Source: Planctomycetota bacterium (lineage in GTDB: Bacteria > Planctomycetota > UBA1135 > UBA2386). From it: a DNA stretch of 55,236 nt. Numbering within the stretch: the stretch's first letter is position 1; each line of letters begins with the position of its first letter. The stretch spans positions 1-55,236 of the forward strand of contig VGZG01000014.1 in NCBI GenBank assembly GCA_016872675.1, in the 5' to 3' direction. Under the pieces are notes generated by a model, which did no database searches, was not told where the DNA came from, and saw nothing but the letters and a program-made list of their open reading frames with translations. The translations under genes and the position numbers were made by a program. Positions 25,539 to 51,534 of the stretch are shown here, one piece after another.

Positions 25539-26819
25539 TCAGCGGATGTTTTCCTCGGTGATGGTCTCGCTGGCGGCGTCCCAGCGCAGGCGCAGCCCGT
25601 GCCTTGCGGTGTTACAGGTCCAGCTGCGTTCGCCGAAGACGACGCGCACGCCGGGATGGATCGTGCCTTGGATCTCGACGCACGCTTTGGCCAGCGCTTC
25701 GCGCTGGTGGAGGCGCAGCTTGCGGCGCTCCGCGTTGGCCGCATCGTCGCTGTGCAGGTCCGTGCCGCTGCCATGACGCTGCTGGGCGTGCTCGTCGAGT
25801 CGCGCGGCGCCGGTGGCGCGCACCGACTTGGTCGCTTCGGCGAGCACATCGCCGACGACCAGCAGCGTCTCAGCGCCGCCGGGCGATCCGGCGTTGCGCA
25901 CGGTGATGCGGTCGCGGGCGCGCGTCTCGCCGCCGAGCAGGACGCCATGGCGCTCGACCACCTTGACGACGGCGGCGCGGATGTGGCAGTGGGTGGCCTG
26001 GTCGGCGATCGTCACTGTGCCGCCGGCCTCGATGGCGGCGCTGGTCGCGTGGCGGCAGGCGACGTCACCATCAGCGTGCACCACGGCGTGGCGACCAATG
26101 ACACAGCCGCCGATCTCGACGCTGCCGCCGGCGTGAACGGTTCCATCCGTCACCGCGCCCTGCACCTGCACGTCACCGCTGGCGGTCGTGACGAAGCCCT
26201 CGCGCACGTCGCCCTGAACGGCGAGCGAGCCGTCCGTGTGCAGGTTGCCGCTGCTGTAGTCGACGTCGCCGCCGTGCGTGAACAGTGGCACCACGTCGAG
26301 CGTGCGCGCGGTGCGCAGCAGCACGCCGGCGCGCGTGGCCAGCACGCTCGCGCCTTGGACCTTGGCGCCGGCGCCGATGCGGATGGTGGTCGGCTTGCCG
26401 CTCTTCGCCGGCACCGCGCCGCCGTTGACGTCGGTCCCGGGCGTGCCGGCGGTCGGCGGCACGATGCGGCCGAGCTCGGTGCCGACGCTGACGCCGATCA
26501 GGAACAGGCGCTCGCGGTAGTCGATGCTGCCGTCTTCGCGCGGCATGCCAGCCTGCGTGCCGGGTGGGGCGACGCCTTCGATGCGGCCATCCTCGCCGGC
26601 GACCGGCGGCGTGCCGCGCGCGACCAAGGTTTCGCCCCCGAACGTGGCGTCGGCGAGTTTCTGACCGAGCGCGTCGATCACTTCGTCGTCGAGCCCGTGC
26701 ACGATCCGTCCGGCCGCGAGTGCGCTGCGCACGTCGGCCGCGGACATGGCCGTGCCGGCGGTCGCTTGCACGACCGCGACCATGTTGCGGTCGCTGGTGC
26801 GGATCCTGATTCGGGCCAC
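25539..26819 (-). CDS. FapA/DUF342-family protein
   Basis: A 426-residue protein. The N-terminal part (~1-130) matches the FapA region (SIDYRERLFLIGVSVGTELGRIVPPTAGTPGTDVNGG). Residues ~130-320 repeat short strand motifs such as GGDVDYSSGNLHTDGSLAVQGDVREGF and GDVQVQGAVTDGTVHAGGSVEIGG, a right-handed beta helix typical of this family. The C-terminal ~100 residues are charged and end in a basic beta segment. Family members have been linked to flagella, polar localisation and cell shape, so the role here is open. It starts at GTG 26819; no clear ribosome site was seen. Confidence 0.8.
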   Translation of the reverse strand: MARIRIRTSDRNMVAVVQATAGTAMSAADVRSALAAGRIVHGLDDEVIDALGQKLADATFGGETLVARGTPPVAGEDGRIEGVAPPGTQAGMPREDGSIDYRERLFLIGVSVGTELGRIVPPTAGTPGTDVNGGAVPAKSGKPTTIRIGAGAKVQGASVLATRAGVLLRTARTLDVVPLFTHGGDVDYSSGNLHTDGSLAVQGDVREGFVTTASGDVQVQGAVTDGTVHAGGSVEIGGCVIGRHAVVHADGDVACRHATSAAIEAGGTVTIADQATHCHIRAAVVKVVERHGVLLGGETRARDRITVRNAGSPGGAETLLVVGDVLAEATKSVRATGAARLDEHAQQRHGSGTDLHSDDAANAERRKLRLHQREALAKACVEIQGTIHPGVRVVFGERSWTCNTARHGLRLRWDAASETITEENIR

Positions 26820-26870: not shown

Positions 26871-28721
26871 TCACTGCGGCCGCAGGGTCGCCAGTTCGGT
26901 CAGGTACGGCGCGTTCGTAGTCGACAAGCACACGGCCTGTAGGCCGAGTTCGGCGCCCAGCAGCGGCCACGCTGACGGCATCGGCAGTCTTGCGACGATG
27001 GTTGCGTTCGCAGCGAGGGTGACCGGGGGTAGCAGCAGGGTGTCGTCTGGCGCCAGCAGCAAGGCGCCGAGGCCCGGAAGCGCGATGGGGCCGGCCGCCG
27101 GTAGCCCGAGGGCGGGCGCGATGAGGCCGCCGCCAGGCGGCGCCGCAGCGAACCAGGTCACCGGCGCGTCAGCTGGCTGAACGCGGCGGAACTCGGGAAA
27201 CTGCGCGAACCAGCCGGCGCCGGCGAGCGCCGACCCCGCGAGGACTTCGTTGGCGGTGGTCAGCCGCAGGCACTCGCTGTTCGCGCGCAAACTGGTCAGT
27301 GGCCCAGACAGGGTCTGTGCGGACCACGCGCCGGTCTGGGCCGCGTAGGCCAGCGCGATGCCGCCGTTGAGCAGCAGCGCCGTCGTGCGCCAGATCTGCG
27401 GCGTCACCGGTCCGGTGGCCGCGAGCGGCCGGCTGACCCAGCGATCGATGCGCGCGTCGAAGGCGTGCACCGAGGTCGCGCCGATCGCGATCAGCGGCGC
27501 GCTGCTCGGATTGCCGGCGAGCTGCGCACCCGGCTCGGCGAGCGCGACGAAGCGACCGGTGCGCGGCGAGAACGCGACGACGCCGGCGGCGGTCAGCGCT
27601 GCGGCGGCGGTCGTGGTCAGCAGCGGGACCGTGAGCCCCGGCGGACCCTCGATCCAGCGTCCGGTGACGGCGCTGAAGAACTGCGGCGCGGCGCCGATGG
27701 CCGGGCGAGCCCAAGCGACCAGGTCGGCGACGCCGCTGCTGGCCGCCTGACCCGGCAACAACGCGATCTCGTTGCGCTCGGCGCTGTAGCCCAGCGTGCC
27801 GGCGGCGTCTGTGAGCAGCGCGGTCGCCCCGCGCGCGCTGATCGACGCGCCGCTTGGCGCCAGCGGCGCGCTCCAGGCGCCGACCAGCGCCGAGAAGGCG
27901 CGGATCGTGGTACCGTCGTCGAAGAGGCCGTACAGGTCCCACAGACTCACGGACAGCAGGCCGCCGGCGTCGCAGACGGCGAAGGCGCCGCGAATCGCGC
28001 TGAATGCGACGGCCCGGCTGGAGCCGCAGAACGCGCCCCAATCATCCCCGCGCGCAAACGCGGCGGCAGCTGGTTCGTTGGTGTCGAGCCACGCGCCGGT
28101 CATCGCCGAGAACGCGTGCACGGTGCCGGCGCCCCAGGCGAAGGCCGCGCTGCCGTCGGCGCTGCATTGCGTCGGCGCCGCGGCGACCGCGTGGTCGTGC
28201 CATGCCGCCGTGGCCGCGTCCATCGCCGACAGCAGCGCGCCTTGCAGCAGCAGCAGCACTTGGCGCTGCACGGTGACCTGGAAGTTCGCGGCGACGGGGC
28301 GGTGGCGCCAATGGCCCTCGGTGGCAGCGAATATGTGCAACAGACCATTGTCGGAGACGGCCAGGATGGCGTCGTTCTGCGCGCCGGCGGCGTTGTGCGG
28401 CACGGCGGTGGGGCCGATGGCCAGTGTGGCGAAGCGGCCGGTGAAGGCCGAGTAGGCCAAACAGTTGCCATTATCGAGCGCGAGCAGGCAGTCGTTGTGC
28501 AGACTGAGCGACGCACTCGGCGCGACCCGGTGGTTGCTCCATGCGCGGGTCACGGCCGACCATGCGTGCAGCGTGCTGCCGTCGCGGTAGATCGCGATCT
28601 TGCCGAGCGACTGGCATTGAGCCGCGATGGCCCCCGACGGCACGGTCAGCGTTGCCCACGGCGACGGCGCCTGCGCTGCGATGGCGGCGGCGAGCCCGGC
28701 GGCGACGAGGAAGCGGGGCAT
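26871..28721 (-). CDS. Secreted protein of 13 short beta repeats (propeller-like), function unknown
   Basis: A 616-residue protein of no known family. The signal peptide MPRFLVAAGLAAAIAAQ is cut before Gln. Thirteen repeats follow with a core HAFSAxTGxW, starting near residues 52, 88, 129, 165, 202, 238, 274, 310, 347, 382, 419, 457 and 494, spaced 35-41 residues. Aromatic and Gly positions suggest one beta-propeller blade or hairpin per repeat. The last ~75 residues carry the C-terminal module shared with three other secreted proteins here (SAWPLLGAELGLQAVCLSTT, ending in Gln). ATG 28721 was preferred over 28736 because it gives a normal signal peptide. Confidence 0.75.
   Translation of the reverse strand: MPRFLVAAGLAAAIAAQAPSPWATLTVPSGAIAAQCQSLGKIAIYRDGSTLHAWSAVTRAWSNHRVAPSASLSLHNDCLLALDNGNCLAYSAFTGRFATLAIGPTAVPHNAAGAQNDAILAVSDNGLLHIFAATEGHWRHRPVAANFQVTVQRQVLLLLQGALLSAMDAATAAWHDHAVAAAPTQCSADGSAAFAWGAGTVHAFSAMTGAWLDTNEPAAAAFARGDDWGAFCGSSRAVAFSAIRGAFAVCDAGGLLSVSLWDLYGLFDDGTTIRAFSALVGAWSAPLAPSGASISARGATALLTDAAGTLGYSAERNEIALLPGQAASSGVADLVAWARPAIGAAPQFFSAVTGRWIEGPPGLTVPLLTTTAAAALTAAGVVAFSPRTGRFVALAEPGAQLAGNPSSAPLIAIGATSVHAFDARIDRWVSRPLAATGPVTPQIWRTTALLLNGGIALAYAAQTGAWSAQTLSGPLTSLRANSECLRLTTANEVLAGSALAGAGWFAQFPEFRRVQPADAPVTWFAAAPPGGGLIAPALGLPAAGPIALPGLGALLLAPDDTLLLPPVTLAANATIVARLPMPSAWPLLGAELGLQAVCLSTTNAPYLTELATLRPQ
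27200..28605 (-). repeat. 13 tandem coding repeats of 36-37 codons
   Basis: The repeats share the protein core (H/V/L)A(F/Y/W)SAxTGxW. They are diverged in DNA sequence, so the array is old and kept by selection rather than a recent duplication. Confidence 0.75.
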
Positions 28722-29130
28722 GGAAACGACCGCCATACTAGCGGCGCCGGCGGCAGCCTGGCGGCGGGGTCGTGGAATACCGTGACGACGCGCCTGCGCC
28801 CGTGCGGTGGGGCGGATCGCGGCGCTTCATGCCCTGGTCCGCGACCAACGAACATTCGCGCGTGTTCGCGCGTCAGATCGCGACCGGCAAGATGAAACTG
28901 CCGCCGCTGCCGCCGACCCCGTCGGAAGCGCTGTCCCTCTGCCACGCTGTCGGAGATCAGCAGCGTCGGCAGCGCCGAGACCGCGGCCCATCGCGTCGCT
29001 GCGCTCGACGTGCTCGGTCAGCTTGCCGCCCGCCAGCAGTCGGCGGTCGGCGGCCCCGCGGGCTAGCGGCCCGCGGACCGGCGCGGATCGCCGTGGCGCG
29101 GCCCGCTCGGTCCGGCATGATTCCGGCCGC
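28722..29130 (+). other. Gap with a possible small gene, perhaps frameshifted
   Basis: A frame from GTG 28772 reads WSATNEHSRVFARQIATGK and then MKLPPLPPTPSEALSLCHAV, with gene-like codon use. After about 28940 the next frame looks better (SEISSVGSAETAAHRVAAL and on) and stops at TAG 29064-29066. The start faintly recalls the entry of HDOD-domain proteins. It is either a broken short gene or chance. The rest of the gap, which must hold the elbB promoter, shows no clear site. Confidence 0.3.
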
Positions 29131-30710: not shown

Positions 30711-33683
30711 TCACTGCGTGAACAGGTTGACGAACGCGTTCGAGGCGACGAAGGTCGTGAACGTCGGGTCGAGCGTCACCACCTGGCTGTAGAAGAACAC
30801 ACCCGTCGTCGACGGGATGTTCGGCGCCAGGAACGAGCTGGTCGACAGGCCCGCGCCGTCCGTGGTGCCGGTGAACAGGTTGATGAAGCCGCCGACCTGG
30901 ACGGTCGGGAAGCCCGGGACCGCCGTCGGGCCTGGCGCGTCGGCGATCGCCAGGATGTAGGGCCACGTCGGCTGCGTCGTCGCGACGGCCAAGTTGATCG
31001 TCGCGCCCTGCTGCGCCTGCTCCGGCAGCATGGTCAGCTCGGCCGGCAGCAGCAATATCTGCTTGGTGCCGAGTTCGATGTCGTCGATGTTCCAGCCGCC
31101 GAGGTTCAGCGCGCCGTCGGTGGTGATGCGGAACTCGACCGTCACGGCGGCCTGGTTGTCGGCCATCGGGATCGCGTACTCGACCGTCGACCACGTCGTG
31201 TCGAGCAGGTTGCCGTTGGCGGGGTTGCCCCAGACCAGCGTGCCGTTCACGTAGATCTCGGCGCGGTCGTAGATGCCTTCCTCGACGGTCAGCCAGCGAC
31301 GGAAGCGCAGGAAGCAGCCGGTGCGGCCGCTGCAGTTGATCGCCGGGCTGCGCAGCCAGTAGCTGCGGCTGGCGTAGTACTGACCGTTCCAGACCGTATT
31401 GCCGAGGTCGGTGCCGTAGATGTTCCCGTTGGCGCTCGCCGCCGTCGGGTCAGCCCACGGGATACCATTCGCTGTGCCGGACTTGCCCGCCGGCGCGCCG
31501 AGTTGCCAGTCCTGCGCGGTGCCGGTGTAATTACCAGCCGTCCAGCCGTTGGCGCCGGCGGTGAAGCCCTCGTTGTAGAAGCCGACGAACGGGCCGGTGG
31601 TGGCGACGTTCGTGGTGTAGGTGAACGTTCCCGTCTGCGGCAGGCGGGTCACCGAGTTGTTGCTGTGCACGGCCTCGAAGTAGTAGGTCGTGGTGCCCGA
31701 GTTGCGGCCCGGGAGCAGAGCGACGTAGCCGTCGGCGACGCCGTTCGGCACCAGGACGCGCGTGACGTTGCCGGCGCCGACGTTGTAGACGACGCGGACC
31801 TGGCTGACCGAGCCGGCGGCGATCGGCGACGCCGACACGTCGACGCGACGCGGCTTCAGCTGCTCGCTCGTGTTGCCGAGCGCCGTGTGCGTGATCGAGA
31901 CCTCCTGCTTGACCGGGTACGGGATCGCCTTGTCGGTCGCCGCGCCGGCGAGGTGGTCGTAGTTCGGCGTGCCGTTGAGCAGGTTGCCGTCGTTGTCGTC
32001 GGCGATGAACACCTCGCGGACGCCGTCCGGACGCGTGCTGGCGTTGGCGAGCAGCGACGAGACGACGATGTCCTGCGAGATCGCGACCGCCTGGGCCGTG
32101 CCGAACGCGGCGCGCAGGCGCTCACGCAGGCGCCACGCGAAGCCCATCCAGACCTGGCCGGCGGCGTGCGGCGACGAGCCCGAGTACGGGTACAGGAACG
32201 TGTTGTCGCCGCGGCGCAGCGCGACGCCGGCCGTCTGGAAGCCGCTGCCCAGCAGCGGCGTGTCCATCAGGTAGCAGCCGAGGATGTCGCCCCAGCCTTC
32301 GCTCATGCCTTCGGCGTTGGTGTTGCTGATGCCACCGTAGCGCTCGTCGATGCCGTGGCCCCACTCGTGCGCCACGACCGTCGAGAAGGCCGTGTTCGAG
32401 CAGCCGCCGCCGGCCTGGTAGAAGTTGATCGTGTTGCCCGTGTAGTAGGCGTTGCACGTCGACGCGATGTTGACCGTGACCGCGACGTTGCTCGCGGTGG
32501 CCAGCTGCGTGCTGTTGCCGAGGATCGTGCGGCACCACTCGTTGGTGCGGTCGACGAAGTAGCTCGTCGACGTGTGCGCGGCTTCGTTGGCCGTCGCCGC
32601 CGCCGTCAGCAGGTCGATCGACGCCGGCACGCCCGGGTTGACCGTGACGTTCGCCGCCGGCGCGTTGGCGCCGCTGATCGGGTTGTGGTGGCGGCCGTCG
32701 AGCGTGCCGATCGAGATCGTCACCGGCGACGCGATGTCGATGGTGAACTGGCCGTTGTTGTCGGTCGTGTAGTTGCCGAGGCCCGGCACCGCGACGACGA
32801 GGCCGGGGATCGGCACGTTGACCAGCGCCGCGAAGGCGTCGATGCCGGTGCGCGTCCAGCCGGTCACCGTCACCGTCGTCGGCACCGGCGGCATCGCCGC
32901 CGTCGTGGCCGGCGCCGCCGCGGGCGCGGCCTTGGCGACGTTGCAGCCGACGAAGCCGCATTCGTGCTTGTCGCTGACGAAGGTCAGCACGGCGCCCGTC
33001 TTGGCGTCGACGAAGAAGCGGCCGATCCTGCCATCGCCCGTGCCGTCGACGTTGCTGACGCTGACTTCCCATGCGAGGTAGAACGGCGCGAGGTTGTCGG
33101 CGTGCGTGTCGCCCCAGATGACGAGGCGCGGCGCGGCAACCGGCGCGGGTTGCTTGACGCCCGTTGGCTGCGCGTCGAGCGCGTTCCACGCGGTCGCGGT
33201 GGCGACGTCGGCGTCGATCGCCGGCGTCGTGTCGAAGTCAGCCGCGATCGGCCAAGCCTTGCTGCCCAGCATCGCGACGACACCGCTCATGTTGATGCGG
33301 ACGTCGGCTCGGCCGTCGATGACCTTGAGGCCGCGGAAGTACTGATCGTAGGTGAAGGTCCAGGAGCGGCCCATGCGGCCGCTGATCGCCTCGCGGAAGT
33401 CGCTCGTGCCGAGGCCAAGCAGCGTGCTCTGGTCGCGCAACAGCTTGTTCGCGTGCGCGCGCGCCGCCGCGAGTGAGTTCTCGGTCCAGCCGCTGATCGG
33501 CATGCCGGTGCCATAGATCGCGCTCGGAGTGCCGGTGGCCGGGTGCCACTGGGCGATCCACTGGCCGCCCTGTTCGGCGCGGAAGGCCTTGAAGGCGCTC
33601 TTTGGCTGGAAGGTCGGATCCTGAGTCTGATCCTGGGCGGGACAGAACGCAGCCAGGGTCGCAACGGTGGCGAGTATTCGCAT
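30711..33683 (-). CDS. Secreted fungalysin/thermolysin-like zinc metalloprotease
   Basis: A 990-residue protein. The signal peptide MRILATVATLAAFCPAQ is cut before Gln. Residues ~25-245 form an FTP/PepSY-like propeptide. A carboxypeptidase-regulatory-like beta insert (~265-355) follows. The catalytic part has HEWGH at 439-443 and the third ligand region EGWGD at 462-466. Residues ~640-900 are beta-rich (fibronectin- and jelly-roll-like). The last ~100 residues are the shared C-terminal module (TTGVFFYSQVVTLDPT, ending in Gln). It probably digests proteins outside the cell or at the surface. ATG 33683 begins the signal peptide. Confidence 0.85.
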   Translation of the reverse strand: MRILATVATLAAFCPAQDQTQDPTFQPKSAFKAFRAEQGGQWIAQWHPATGTPSAIYGTGMPISGWTENSLAAARAHANKLLRDQSTLLGLGTSDFREAISGRMGRSWTFTYDQYFRGLKVIDGRADVRINMSGVVAMLGSKAWPIAADFDTTPAIDADVATATAWNALDAQPTGVKQPAPVAAPRLVIWGDTHADNLAPFYLAWEVSVSNVDGTGDGRIGRFFVDAKTGAVLTFVSDKHECGFVGCNVAKAAPAAAPATTAAMPPVPTTVTVTGWTRTGIDAFAALVNVPIPGLVVAVPGLGNYTTDNNGQFTIDIASPVTISIGTLDGRHHNPISGANAPAANVTVNPGVPASIDLLTAAATANEAAHTSTSYFVDRTNEWCRTILGNSTQLATASNVAVTVNIASTCNAYYTGNTINFYQAGGGCSNTAFSTVVAHEWGHGIDERYGGISNTNAEGMSEGWGDILGCYLMDTPLLGSGFQTAGVALRRGDNTFLYPYSGSSPHAAGQVWMGFAWRLRERLRAAFGTAQAVAISQDIVVSSLLANASTRPDGVREVFIADDNDGNLLNGTPNYDHLAGAATDKAIPYPVKQEVSITHTALGNTSEQLKPRRVDVSASPIAAGSVSQVRVVYNVGAGNVTRVLVPNGVADGYVALLPGRNSGTTTYYFEAVHSNNSVTRLPQTGTFTYTTNVATTGPFVGFYNEGFTAGANGWTAGNYTGTAQDWQLGAPAGKSGTANGIPWADPTAASANGNIYGTDLGNTVWNGQYYASRSYWLRSPAINCSGRTGCFLRFRRWLTVEEGIYDRAEIYVNGTLVWGNPANGNLLDTTWSTVEYAIPMADNQAAVTVEFRITTDGALNLGGWNIDDIELGTKQILLLPAELTMLPEQAQQGATINLAVATTQPTWPYILAIADAPGPTAVPGFPTVQVGGFINLFTGTTDGAGLSTSSFLAPNIPSTTGVFFYSQVVTLDPTFTTFVASNAFVNLFTQ

Positions 33684-34880: not shown

Positions 34881-36881
34881 ATGGTCCGACTTTTCGCCGC
34901 ACTCGTGCTCACGACTGGCCTCGTTGCCCAATCGCCGCTGCAGTCCACTTTCGTCGGCGGATTGCAGATTTCGATCCCCGGTCCGGCAGCCGCGACGCAA
35001 CTGTTCGACGTCACGGTCACCGATCCGGCCGGCCTGACGATCCATCGCATCGACACCAACATCAACACCGGCTCCGGCACCAACGGCACGCTCGGCGTCT
35101 GGATCACCGGCGTCGGCGGCACGCTGCTCGGCAACGAACTCAACGCCGCGGCCTGGACCAACGTCGCGACGGCGACCCGCACGCACGCCGGCGGCCGCGT
35201 CACCTGGACCCTGCCGACGCCGTTCTACCTCGCGCCGGGCACCTACGGCATGGCGCTGCACCACGTCTCGGCCAACCCGATCTACACCAATCCGGCGACC
35301 CCGGTGCCGCCGCTGCCGAGCACCTACAGCACGCTCGAGGCGTCGCTCAACATGGTCGCCGCGCGCGTCCGCACGTCGACCGTCGCCAGCGCCTTTGGCG
35401 GCACGGGTCTCGGCAACCTGCGCCACCCCAACATCGCGCTCTACTACGTCAGCGGCGTCACGTTCGTCGACTTCGCCGGCACGCCGACCCGCGGCGCCTC
35501 GCCGCTGACAGTGAACTTCACGGCGCAGGCGTCGTCCGGCAATCCGGGCGGCATCCTGGCCTACGCCTGGGACTTCGACTTCGACGGCGTCACCGACAGC
35601 AACCTCGCCAACCCGAGCCATGTCTACGTCAACTGCGGCAACTACACCGTGTCGCTGACGATCGTCGACAGCCTCGGCGCCTACACGGCGGTCAAGCAGA
35701 ACTACGTGCAGACGGACATCGTCGTGCCGTCGTTCACCAACCAACTGATCGCGCCGAACACGCTGCAGTTCACTGACACCTCGTCGCCGCCCCCGGCGAC
35801 GTGGGACTGGGACCTCGACGGCGACGGCTTGACCGACTCGACCGCGCAGAACCCGACGTTCACGTATCCCGGCAGCTGCGGCGAGGTCAACGTCACGCTG
35901 CGCGTGCAGCGCGCGTGCCAGCCGACGGTGACGCTCAGCAAGCGCATCGCCGTCGCGACGTCGATGGAGACGACGTTCACCGGCGGCACGTTCATCAACG
36001 CGACGGCGCCGGGCGCCGCCAGCTACATGGACGTCAACGTCACCAACCCCAACGGCGTGACGATCTGCGGCCTGCACGTGCACAGCAGCGTCGCCGCCGG
36101 CAGCCCGGTGACGATCAACGTCTGGCAGAAGGCCGGCACGTACGTCGGCGCGGTGCTCGACGCGACGCAGTGGCGCCTCGTCGGCACGTCGGTGACGACG
36201 TCGCGCGGCTTCAACCAGCGCACCTTCGCGCCGCTGGCGGCGCCGGTGCACCTCGCCGCCGGCCTCAACGGCGTCGCGGTCGAGATGCTCGGCGGCTCGC
36301 CGTTCTACAGCAACCTCGGCGCGCTGACGACCTACACCAACGCCGACATGGCGATCACGACCGGCCTCGTGCAGCAGACGCCGATCTTCGGCCCGACGGC
36401 GACGTCGCCGCAGTTCTCGCCGCGCGTCTGGAACGGCGCCTTCCACTACGGGACGACGCAGACCAACAGCGCGCCGGGCTACGGCTACATCGGCGCCGGC
36501 TGCGCCGGCACGCTCGGCGTGCCGGGCAACGTCTCGTCGACGGCGCCGACGCTCGGTGGCGCGGCGAACATCACGGTCAACAAGCTGCCATTCGGCATCG
36601 CCGTCCTGGCCGTCGGCGTCAGCCGCACGTTCTCGGGCATCGGCCCGCTGCCGGTCGACCTCGGCCTGATCGGCATGCCGGGCTGCCCGCTGCGCGTCTC
36701 GTTCGAGGCGACGCTGACGATGATCGGCGCTAGCACGTCGGCGTCGCTGGCGTTCCCGATCCCGCTGACGCCGGCGCTCGTCGGCACGCAGTTGTTCACG
36801 CAGGCGCTGAGCCTCGACCCGACGCTCAACGCGTTCGGCTTCGGCATCTCGGATGCCGCCGTCATGCTCGTCGGCCAGTGA
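34881..36881 (+). CDS. Secreted PKD-domain protein with duplicated flanking domain
   Basis: A 666-residue protein. The signal peptide MVRLFAALVLTTGLVAQ is cut before Gln. A beta domain of ~170 residues starts with STFVGGLQI. PKD domains follow: AYAWDFDFDGVTDSNLANPS and a shorter WDWDLDGDGLTDS unit. A second copy of the flanking domain then starts with TTFTGGTFI. The two copies share GAA..DVxVTxPxGxTI, a VW core and a late FxLAxGxxG. The final ~130 residues are the shared C-terminal module (YIGAGCAGTLGVPG, PLPVDLGLIGMPGC, LVGTQLFTQALSLDPT, final Gln). It is probably an adhesive or structural surface protein. Confidence 0.75.
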   Translation: MVRLFAALVLTTGLVAQSPLQSTFVGGLQISIPGPAAATQLFDVTVTDPAGLTIHRIDTNINTGSGTNGTLGVWITGVGGTLLGNELNAAAWTNVATATRTHAGGRVTWTLPTPFYLAPGTYGMALHHVSANPIYTNPATPVPPLPSTYSTLEASLNMVAARVRTSTVASAFGGTGLGNLRHPNIALYYVSGVTFVDFAGTPTRGASPLTVNFTAQASSGNPGGILAYAWDFDFDGVTDSNLANPSHVYVNCGNYTVSLTIVDSLGAYTAVKQNYVQTDIVVPSFTNQLIAPNTLQFTDTSSPPPATWDWDLDGDGLTDSTAQNPTFTYPGSCGEVNVTLRVQRACQPTVTLSKRIAVATSMETTFTGGTFINATAPGAASYMDVNVTNPNGVTICGLHVHSSVAAGSPVTINVWQKAGTYVGAVLDATQWRLVGTSVTTSRGFNQRTFAPLAAPVHLAAGLNGVAVEMLGGSPFYSNLGALTTYTNADMAITTGLVQQTPIFGPTATSPQFSPRVWNGAFHYGTTQTNSAPGYGYIGAGCAGTLGVPGNVSSTAPTLGGAANITVNKLPFGIAVLAVGVSRTFSGIGPLPVDLGLIGMPGCPLRVSFEATLTMIGASTSASLAFPIPLTPALVGTQLFTQALSLDPTLNAFGFGISDAAVMLVGQ

Positions 36882-49626: not shown

Positions 49627-51534
49627 ATGCTCCGCCTGTTCCTCGCCGCGGCAGTGTTGCTGGCTTCGCTGCGCGCGCAGTCGACCGAACTGCGCGGCGT
49701 CTGGGTCGCGCGCGACGGCCTGACCTCGCGCAGCAAGATCGTGCAGACGCTGGACCAGCTCGCCGCCGCCAACGTCAACCTGGTGTGCGTCAACGTCTGG
49801 AGCCGCGGCTACACGATCCATCCGAGCGACGTGCTGTTCGCCGCCTGCGGCGTGCAACAGGACCCGGACTACGTCGGCCGCGATCCGCTACAGGAGTTCG
49901 TCATCGAAGCGCACCTGCGCGGCATCGAGGTGGAGGCGTGGTTCGAGTACGGCTTCATGTTCGGTTGGAGCGGCTGGTACGCCGGGCCGACCGGCATCGG
50001 CCCGGTGCTGACCGCCAACCCGACGTGGATCGGCCGCGACGTGAACGGCAACACGCAGGTCAGCGACGGCGGCACGGGCTACTTCACCTGGGCGAGCCAC
50101 GAGTGCCCGGCGGCGCGGCAGTTCCTGATCGACCTCTGCGTCGAGGTCGCCGACCGGTACGACGTCGACGGCGTCCAGTTCGACCGCTGCCGCTATCCGT
50201 CGACGAGTTGGGGCTACGACAGCTGGACGACGGCGGCCTACCAGCAGGCCACCGGCCAGACGGCGCCGACCAGCAACGTCAACAACGCGCAGTGGAAACG
50301 CTGGCGCGCTGACCGGCTGATCGCGTGGCACACCGCGTTCTACAACGCGGTGAAGGCGCGCCGGCCGGGCCTGCGCATCACCGACGCGCCGACGGTGATG
50401 CCCGGCGCATACGACAACTTCCTGCAGGATTGGCCGCAGTGGGTCGTCACTGGTTCGCTCGACCTCGTCTACCCGCAGGTCTACCGCACGACGGCGAGCA
50501 GCTACGTCACGACGCTCGACCAGCAGCTCGCCTACCTGACGACGGCGCAGCGGCAGAAGGTCGCGCCGGGCATCCGCGCGATCACCGGCACGCCGACCAA
50601 CGAGGTGCTCGCGATGGTCGCTGCCGACCGCGCGCGCAACCTGCCGGGCCACGTGTTCTGGTACGCCGAGGGGCTCTACGACGACCTGCCGTCGCTGACG
50701 GCGCAGTACTTCGCGCAGCCGGCGGCGGTGCCCGGTCGGCCGGCCAACTGGCGGCCGATCCCGACGCGCCGCGACGACGGCGACCCGACGACGACGACCA
50801 CGACCGGCTTCGCGCTGGCGGGGCTGCCGGGTTCGGTCAACCTGCTGTGCCGCGTCGCGCCGGCGACGGCGGCGGCGAGCGACAAGGTGACGTACGCAGT
50901 GCCGGTGCCCGAGGCAGGCCTCTACACGCTGCTGGTCTCGACGCCCGGCGCGCCGGGGTACTGCCCGCAAGCGCCGCACGGCATCGCCACGCCTTCGGGG
51001 CCAGCGACCGTGCGCACCAACCAGGCGGCGCTGCGCGCCGGCTGGACCGAGGTCGGCATGGTGTGGCTGAACGCCGGCGTCGTGCCGGTCGAGGTGCGCG
51101 CGCTGCCGGGCACGCAGGTGATCGCCGATGGCGTCACGCTGATGCGCTCGCGGTTGCGCGGCGGCCAGGCATCGGCAGTCGGCAGCGGCACCGTCGGCGC
51201 GCTCGGCGGCGTGCAGTTGGCGAAGCTCGGCCGCGCGGGACTCGGTGGCACGATCCGCCTGCAGGCCTCGCGCACCGCGCCGCTCACGCCGACGCTGATC
51301 GGCGTCGGCTTCACGCCGACGGCGCTGCCGCTCTTCGGCGGCACGCTCTACGTCGTTCCCGACCTCGTGCAGTTCTTCGTCAGCGACACGCAGGGCTTCG
51401 CCGAACTGCCGATCGCGGTGCCCTTCGTTCCGCCGCTGGTCGGCACGCAGCTCTGGGCGCAGGCGCTCGCGAACGACGCGACCAATCCGAACGGCGTCAC
51501 GCTGTCGCCGGGCATCGCGCTGGTGCTGCAGTAG
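49627..51534 (+). CDS. Secreted GHL10 (YngK/YddW-type) glycoside hydrolase-like protein
   Basis: A 635-residue protein with signal peptide MLRLFLAAAVLLASLRAQ, cut before Gln. Residues ~18-370 form a GHL10 TIM barrel: ELRGVWVARDGL, NVNLVCVNVWSRGYTIHPSD, DVDGVQFDRCRYP and LDLVYPQVYR. Relatives act on cell-wall or surface polysaccharides. A beta region (~385-510) follows, then the shared C-terminal module (LVGTQLWAQALANDAT, ending in Gln). ATG 49627 gives a tight signal peptide; ATG 49615, four codons upstream, is possible. It is divergent from cstA. Confidence 0.82.
   Translation: MLRLFLAAAVLLASLRAQSTELRGVWVARDGLTSRSKIVQTLDQLAAANVNLVCVNVWSRGYTIHPSDVLFAACGVQQDPDYVGRDPLQEFVIEAHLRGIEVEAWFEYGFMFGWSGWYAGPTGIGPVLTANPTWIGRDVNGNTQVSDGGTGYFTWASHECPAARQFLIDLCVEVADRYDVDGVQFDRCRYPSTSWGYDSWTTAAYQQATGQTAPTSNVNNAQWKRWRADRLIAWHTAFYNAVKARRPGLRITDAPTVMPGAYDNFLQDWPQWVVTGSLDLVYPQVYRTTASSYVTTLDQQLAYLTTAQRQKVAPGIRAITGTPTNEVLAMVAADRARNLPGHVFWYAEGLYDDLPSLTAQYFAQPAAVPGRPANWRPIPTRRDDGDPTTTTTTGFALAGLPGSVNLLCRVAPATAAASDKVTYAVPVPEAGLYTLLVSTPGAPGYCPQAPHGIATPSGPATVRTNQAALRAGWTEVGMVWLNAGVVPVEVRALPGTQVIADGVTLMRSRLRGGQASAVGSGTVGALGGVQLAKLGRAGLGGTIRLQASRTAPLTPTLIGVGFTPTALPLFGGTLYVVPDLVQFFVSDTQGFAELPIAVPFVPPLVGTQLWAQALANDATNPNGVTLSPGIALVLQ

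Follow-up and report, generated by a model that had tools for sequence, protein, structure and literature searches.

In propeller proteins, strand a is the inner strand. PQQ repeats carry the core DGxLYALDAxTGxxxW in proteins with 8 repeats, and Kelch repeats have the spacing DPxTNxW. Long unbroken series of blades have also been described, with the 14 consecutive blades of WRAP folding as 7+7 and a series of 15 modelled as 7+8; the same 2022 work names a 12-bladed, oligomeric propeller as the largest (PMC9218822).

We analyzed a window of 55,236 nucleotides from a Planctomycetota bacterium, in which a gene at 26871-28736 on the minus strand, with an ATG start and a single copy in this genome, encodes a 621-residue protein containing 13 repeats. 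Initial annotation had given the span as 26871-28721. The open reading frame itself reaches 28736, while 28721 corresponds to an internal ATG (Met6), and the alignment places the beginning of close relatives at this codon as well (MPR..., MPRYCL..., MPRPFL...). Since close relatives start at the same place, Met6 is probably the start site rather than Met1 (28736). A signal peptide, MPRFLVAAGLAAAIAAQA, was read by eye, and relatives are similarly hydrophobic at the same place, in agreement with the proposal that the protein is secreted. From the N-terminus, the protein consists of the signal peptide, repeats 1-13 (residues 27-507), a conserved tail (509-519), and the module that ends the chain (519-621). 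The features are listed below, with the boundaries of the repeats set by the register of their cores.

28671-28721, minus strand: signal peptide, residues 6-22 (MPRFLVAAGLAAAIAAQ), from the sequence and the alignment with relatives
28542-28658, minus strand: repeat 1 (residues 27-65)
28434-28541, minus strand: repeat 2 (66-101)
28311-28433, minus strand: repeat 3 (102-142)
28203-28310, minus strand: repeat 4 (143-178)
28092-28202, minus strand: repeat 5 (179-215)
27984-28091, minus strand: repeat 6 (216-251)
27876-27983, minus strand: repeat 7 (252-287)
27768-27875, minus strand: repeat 8 (288-323)
27657-27767, minus strand: repeat 9 (324-360)
27552-27656, minus strand: repeat 10 (361-395)
27441-27551, minus strand: repeat 11 (396-432)
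27327-27440, minus strand: repeat 12 (433-470)
27216-27326, minus strand: repeat 13 (471-507), with a conserved RANSE motif (484-488), from the register of cores and family conservation
27180-27212, minus strand: conserved tail WFAQFPEFRRV (509-519), from family conservation (P514 98%, F516 82%)
26874-27182, minus strand: C-terminal module (519-621) of about 100 residues, common to many proteins of the genome and the phylum
25539-26819, minus strand: neighboring FapA-like gene with FapA and FapA_N domains, 51 bases downstream in the same orientation

The 13 cores start at residues 57, 93, 134, 170, 207, 243, 279, 315, 352, 387, 424, 462, and 499, with successive spacings of 36, 41, 36, 37, 36, 36, 36, 37, 35, 37, 38, and 37. 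A loose form of the core pattern occurred 11 times, whereas 2000 shuffles contained it 0.1 times on average and never more than twice, and a strict form occurred five times, compared to 0.001 in shuffles. Autocorrelation of the family profile peaked at 36, followed by 109 and 73. When the 13 repeat alignments were compared profile to profile, the median probability over 78 pairs was 88.7, whereas column-permuted controls in the same comparison (n = 156) gave 0.24, with none of the 156 reaching 50. A single-repeat HMM detects 13 repeats in the query, and the copies are spaced 35-41 residues apart, as initially annotated; the repeats are real and homologous. The core AFSAxTGxW proposed at the same time holds as a consensus (roughly W..lpv...a.v....nd.alv.DG..lhaFSAxtGxW for the whole repeat) but not as an exact string, since several repeats deviate from it, such as R8 (LGYSAERNEI) and R13 (LAGSALAGAG). 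In mean profile similarity by offset, neither 6 nor 7 stood out clearly as a superperiod, which would have marked a half-protein duplication.

A search with the protein alone matched 33 of 101 genomes, comprising the window's genome and its relatives. With the family profile, matches were found in 35 of the 154 genomes of the class, among them 25 of the 34 genomes searched from the window's own family, and full-length copies are also present in four genomes of another class. We aligned 50 sequences (the window's protein and relatives) from two planctomycete classes, equivalent to about 45 effective sequences at 62% identity. No complete member of this set lacks any of the 13 repeats; in 38 of the 50, the single-repeat HMM detects 12-14 repeats, with lower counts in the most divergent members, where the repeats are still aligned. 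The 26 relatives in the core alignment are 605-638 residues long and 20-54% identical to the query. The window's protein shows all the features by which we define the family, namely, the signal peptide, 13 ordered repeats, an AQFPEFRRV-like tail, and the C-terminal module. Viral, phage, and plasmid collections yielded no relatives, and a single-protein scan of genome contigs, an exact-pattern scan that makes up the whole of our coverage outside Planctomycetota, found only the sister species. One genome harbors two divergent paralogues of the 13-repeat protein in tandem (L076, G086:C1, about 3400980-3404865). Together, these findings establish a conserved, real repeat family, present in 13 copies in secreted planctomycete proteins.

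Short, secreted-looking relatives with 3-4 repeats are found elsewhere in the phylum (L070-L075; G385, G429, G245, G184, G416, and G435). These include open frames of 174, 193, and 207 codons, some are fused to a coiled-coil-like region, and none of the three tested had a Pfam match above the cut-off. Related repeat proteins thus exist, as had been anticipated, but at 13 repeats and in these 3-4-repeat forms rather than across a spread of 6-14. Since three blades cannot close as a monomer, it is conceivable that the short proteins form oligomeric rings, and they offer a natural series on the growth of propellers from single blades.

The initial annotation also described a shared C-terminal module, and a search with just this module yields 27 matches in this genome and further ones in many proteins from other classes of planctomycetes. 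No relative was present in Pfam, and comparison with PDB sequences gave nothing convincing (best E 0.24). This module of about 100 residues, which is without a Pfam model, is a candidate export or anchoring domain, while the conserved tail that precedes it could be the last outer strand or a plug. Elsewhere in the window, the module matches 51286-51486 (plus strand, E 4.6e-6) and 36654-36827 (plus strand, E 3.8e-4). In addition, the large secreted protein encoded at 30711-33680 (minus strand) gives a weak M36/M4 metallopeptidase signal and contains an HEWGH motif, and its C-terminal region resembles the shared module by eye.

To describe the repeat unit, we used two AlphaFold2 models, both built from a two-sequence alignment. 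The model of the full protein had a mean pLDDT of 49, with R2-R5 at about 80 and the others, including R8-R13, at low confidence; in its well-predicted part, DSSP assigned four strands per repeat. R1-R7 modelled alone reached a pLDDT of 82.5 and a pTM of 0.77 (with pLDDT falling to 47.3 across the five models), again with four strands in most repeats, while the first strand (W27ATL) was unpaired and of low confidence. In Foldseek, the R1-R7 model matched 670 PDB chains at E < 0.001, and blade-level matches to WD40 propellers had E values of 1e-6 to 1e-8. Since the chains listed are largely WD40 or other propellers, the models support a propeller-type blade of four antiparallel strands as the repeat unit. 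On the other hand, R1-R7 is not predicted as a closed 7-bladed ring, because the query-normalized TM was 0.23-0.36 against the listed PDB chains and at most 0.40 against viral models, with an rmsd of 9-19 A, and the W27ATL strand was left unpaired. The mismatch with 7-bladed rings may reflect a larger true ring, open blades, or a misleadingly shallow alignment. The propeller reading of the initial annotation therefore stands at the level of the blade, with about four strands per 36 residues, but its closed propeller or pair of stacked propellers is only a candidate arrangement, with a TM of at most 0.40 for R1-R7 against closed rings. Given the low confidence of R8-R13, we did not use the Foldseek superposition of the full model (rmsd about 20 A) to judge ring number.

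In line with the view that the core belongs to no named family, Pfam and NCBIfam returned nothing above the cut-off for the protein or for 27 family members, and we found no description of the repeat in the literature. The Kelch or WD40 match at high score that would have overturned this view did not occur. Sub-threshold matches to MelC1, PEX6, SusE, and others were dismissed as chance, and we also rejected the PDB sequence matches (all E > 0.09), whether the query was the whole protein, the family profile, or a profile of one repeat. We regard it as rather unlikely that the repeat is instead a divergent offshoot of Kelch or PQQ and not a family of its own. Its consensus, DGxxLHAFSAxTGxW, resembles both the PQQ core and the Kelch spacing, and sub-threshold matches to Kelch were seen in two to three relatives (best E 0.014) and to PQQ in one (E 0.042). 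In a reference set of planctomycete PQQ, Kelch, and WD40 proteins, one Kelch protein (L099) scored 26.5 bits in total over five places with the single-repeat HMM; however, its alignment sets FSA against the Kelch FGG strand, contrary to the modelled register, and the match is possibly either an evolutionary link or a chance resemblance. The remaining references stayed near the level of reversed controls, at most 2.3 bits for 14 other Kelch proteins (control 3.3), 5.5 bits for 14 PQQ proteins (control 4.6), and 1.8 bits for WD40 (control 2.6), and hhalign probabilities were at most 1% for all three families (0.4% for PQQ). Moreover, neither the GG doublet nor the roughly 50-residue repeat of Kelch is found here, and neither a WD40 model above the cut-off nor a GH...WD signature is present. 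Because the library tests fail and the references other than this one Kelch protein score near reversed level, we would not file the repeat under PQQ, Kelch, or WD40.

To test for ring closure, we applied mean-field direct coupling analysis to the 50 sequences for each pair of blades, with a template learned from adjacent blades, which were themselves above background (mean z about 0.9-1.4). We give an even chance to two consecutive, linker-free propellers of 7+6 or 6+7 blades, like the 7+7 of WRAP. Apart from this precedent and the modelled 7+8, many of the best Foldseek matches of the full model are tandem WD40 proteins, such as Utp21 and IFT-A, conservation is lowest in repeats 7-9, as it would be at a junction, and the R13 to R8 coupling that would close a second ring is sometimes raised (z 0.1 to 1.8). 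However, the modelled R1-R7 leave the ring open, with the W27 strand unpaired and a low TM to 7-bladed rings, and the corresponding R7 to R1 coupling is missing in most settings, being near zero or negative in the direct coupling analysis and high in one of three settings with mutual information. If the 7+6 arrangement is true, the protein would be a linker-free pair of propellers with unequal rings.

An open superhelical array of blades with no closure is unlikely in our estimate; it would explain why the confident R1-R7 model fails to superpose on closed rings and would accord with 3-4-repeat relatives that cannot close as monomers, but an open array could simply stem from modelling with two sequences, and a count fixed at 13 argues for a closed unit. 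The same fixed count across the family is consistent with a ring of 13 blades in a single chain, as is the high pTM of an R1-R7 model that does not match 7-bladed rings. With 20 or 40 of the best template cells, the R13 to R1 coupling had a z of 2.2-2.7 and ranked 1-4 among 132 non-adjacent pairs, but it fell to 1.2-1.4 with 80 cells and was 1.4-1.7 with mutual information, where R7 to R1 was also high once. Because the roughly 45 effective sequences form a small, related set and we examined several settings, we take the coupling as a weak hint of an R13-R1 contact, and precedent speaks against more than 12 blades in view of the 12-bladed oligomer named as the largest. We therefore consider a 13-blade ring distinctly unlikely; if true, it would be the largest single-chain propeller known to us. 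More doubtful again is the combined picture of such a ring, made from an undescribed blade family, together with 3-4-blade proteins that may oligomerize.

To search for a binding site, we compared, for each register position, conservation within the column to conservation pooled over the repeats. Register positions -12 and -11, in the a-b turn, had 2.27 and 1.98 bits within the column, compared to 0.63 and 0.52 bits when pooled, with repeat-specific residues K46, N81/D82, D122, R158, D232, R450, and S487/E488. Register position -27 was also repeat-specific, because the structural W of the preceding repeat slips in register there. Covariation, ranked by mutual information, was strongest for pairs that involve the a-b turn positions, along with tail residues 512 and 517. 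Since strand a is the inner strand of a propeller, the a-b turn residues would surround the central opening at its rim, and conserved polar residues that differ from repeat to repeat are as expected of a candidate composite binding site, although they could also be purely structural, in a network like the WD40 tetrad.

We slightly favor a model in which the protein is an extracellular scaffold of blades whose inner rim binds a ligand, with the shared C-terminal module serving for its display. Each of the 13 repeats would be a compact four-stranded blade with strand order d-a-b-c and FSAxTGxW as the c-d turn, and the blades would be joined without linkers into a propeller-type structure, in which a-b turns with differing, strongly conserved polar residues may build a single composite binding surface along the inner rim. 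The C-terminal module, which many other proteins of the genome also have, would export or attach the protein. The role would then be that of an extracellular binding scaffold rather than an enzyme of a known class, with a ligand that is probably a glycan or an envelope protein. The gene neighborhood, including the FapA-like gene, offers no functional clue. The adjacency of the 13-repeat and FapA-like genes is maintained in eight relatives, and the sister species shares the order M36-type peptidase, SDR, ElbB-like, 13-repeat gene, FapA-like, LOG-like, and NUDIX-like, where SDR, ElbB, LOG, and NUDIX were assigned by eye from sequence.

Altogether, these findings describe a repeat family that has no model and escapes Pfam, NCBIfam, and sequence searches of the PDB, with a copy number fixed at 13 across two planctomycete classes, which is unusual for a propeller. 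They also point to a secreted protein, conserved in planctomycetes, on which a candidate binding site is mapped. Compared to known systems, the repeat is similar to PQQ repeats (BamB type, PF13360 and relatives) in its blade length, its DG turn, and its occurrence in exported proteins, and the cores at the c-d turn resemble each other (LHAFSAxTG here and LYALDAxTG in PQQ); however, the spacing to W is shorter (TGxW compared to TGxxxW), there are 13 repeats rather than 8, and no HMM matches above the cut-off. Kelch repeats (PF01344, PF13964, and PF24681) share the spacing from core to W and give weak sub-threshold matches but differ in length, at about 50 residues compared to about 36 here, and in their GG doublet, which the consensus lacks, with nothing above the cut-off. 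The tandem WD40 propellers (Utp21; WRAP, with 14 blades as 7+7) correspond in their four strands per repeat, blade matches in Foldseek, and long unbroken series, whereas here there is no sequence match and ring closure is only a candidate. Finally, the Ph1500-type 12-bladed oligomeric propeller (PMC9218822) is a different protein from this chain of 13 repeats, yet it sets a precedent both for rings of large size and for the assembly of a ring from short chains.
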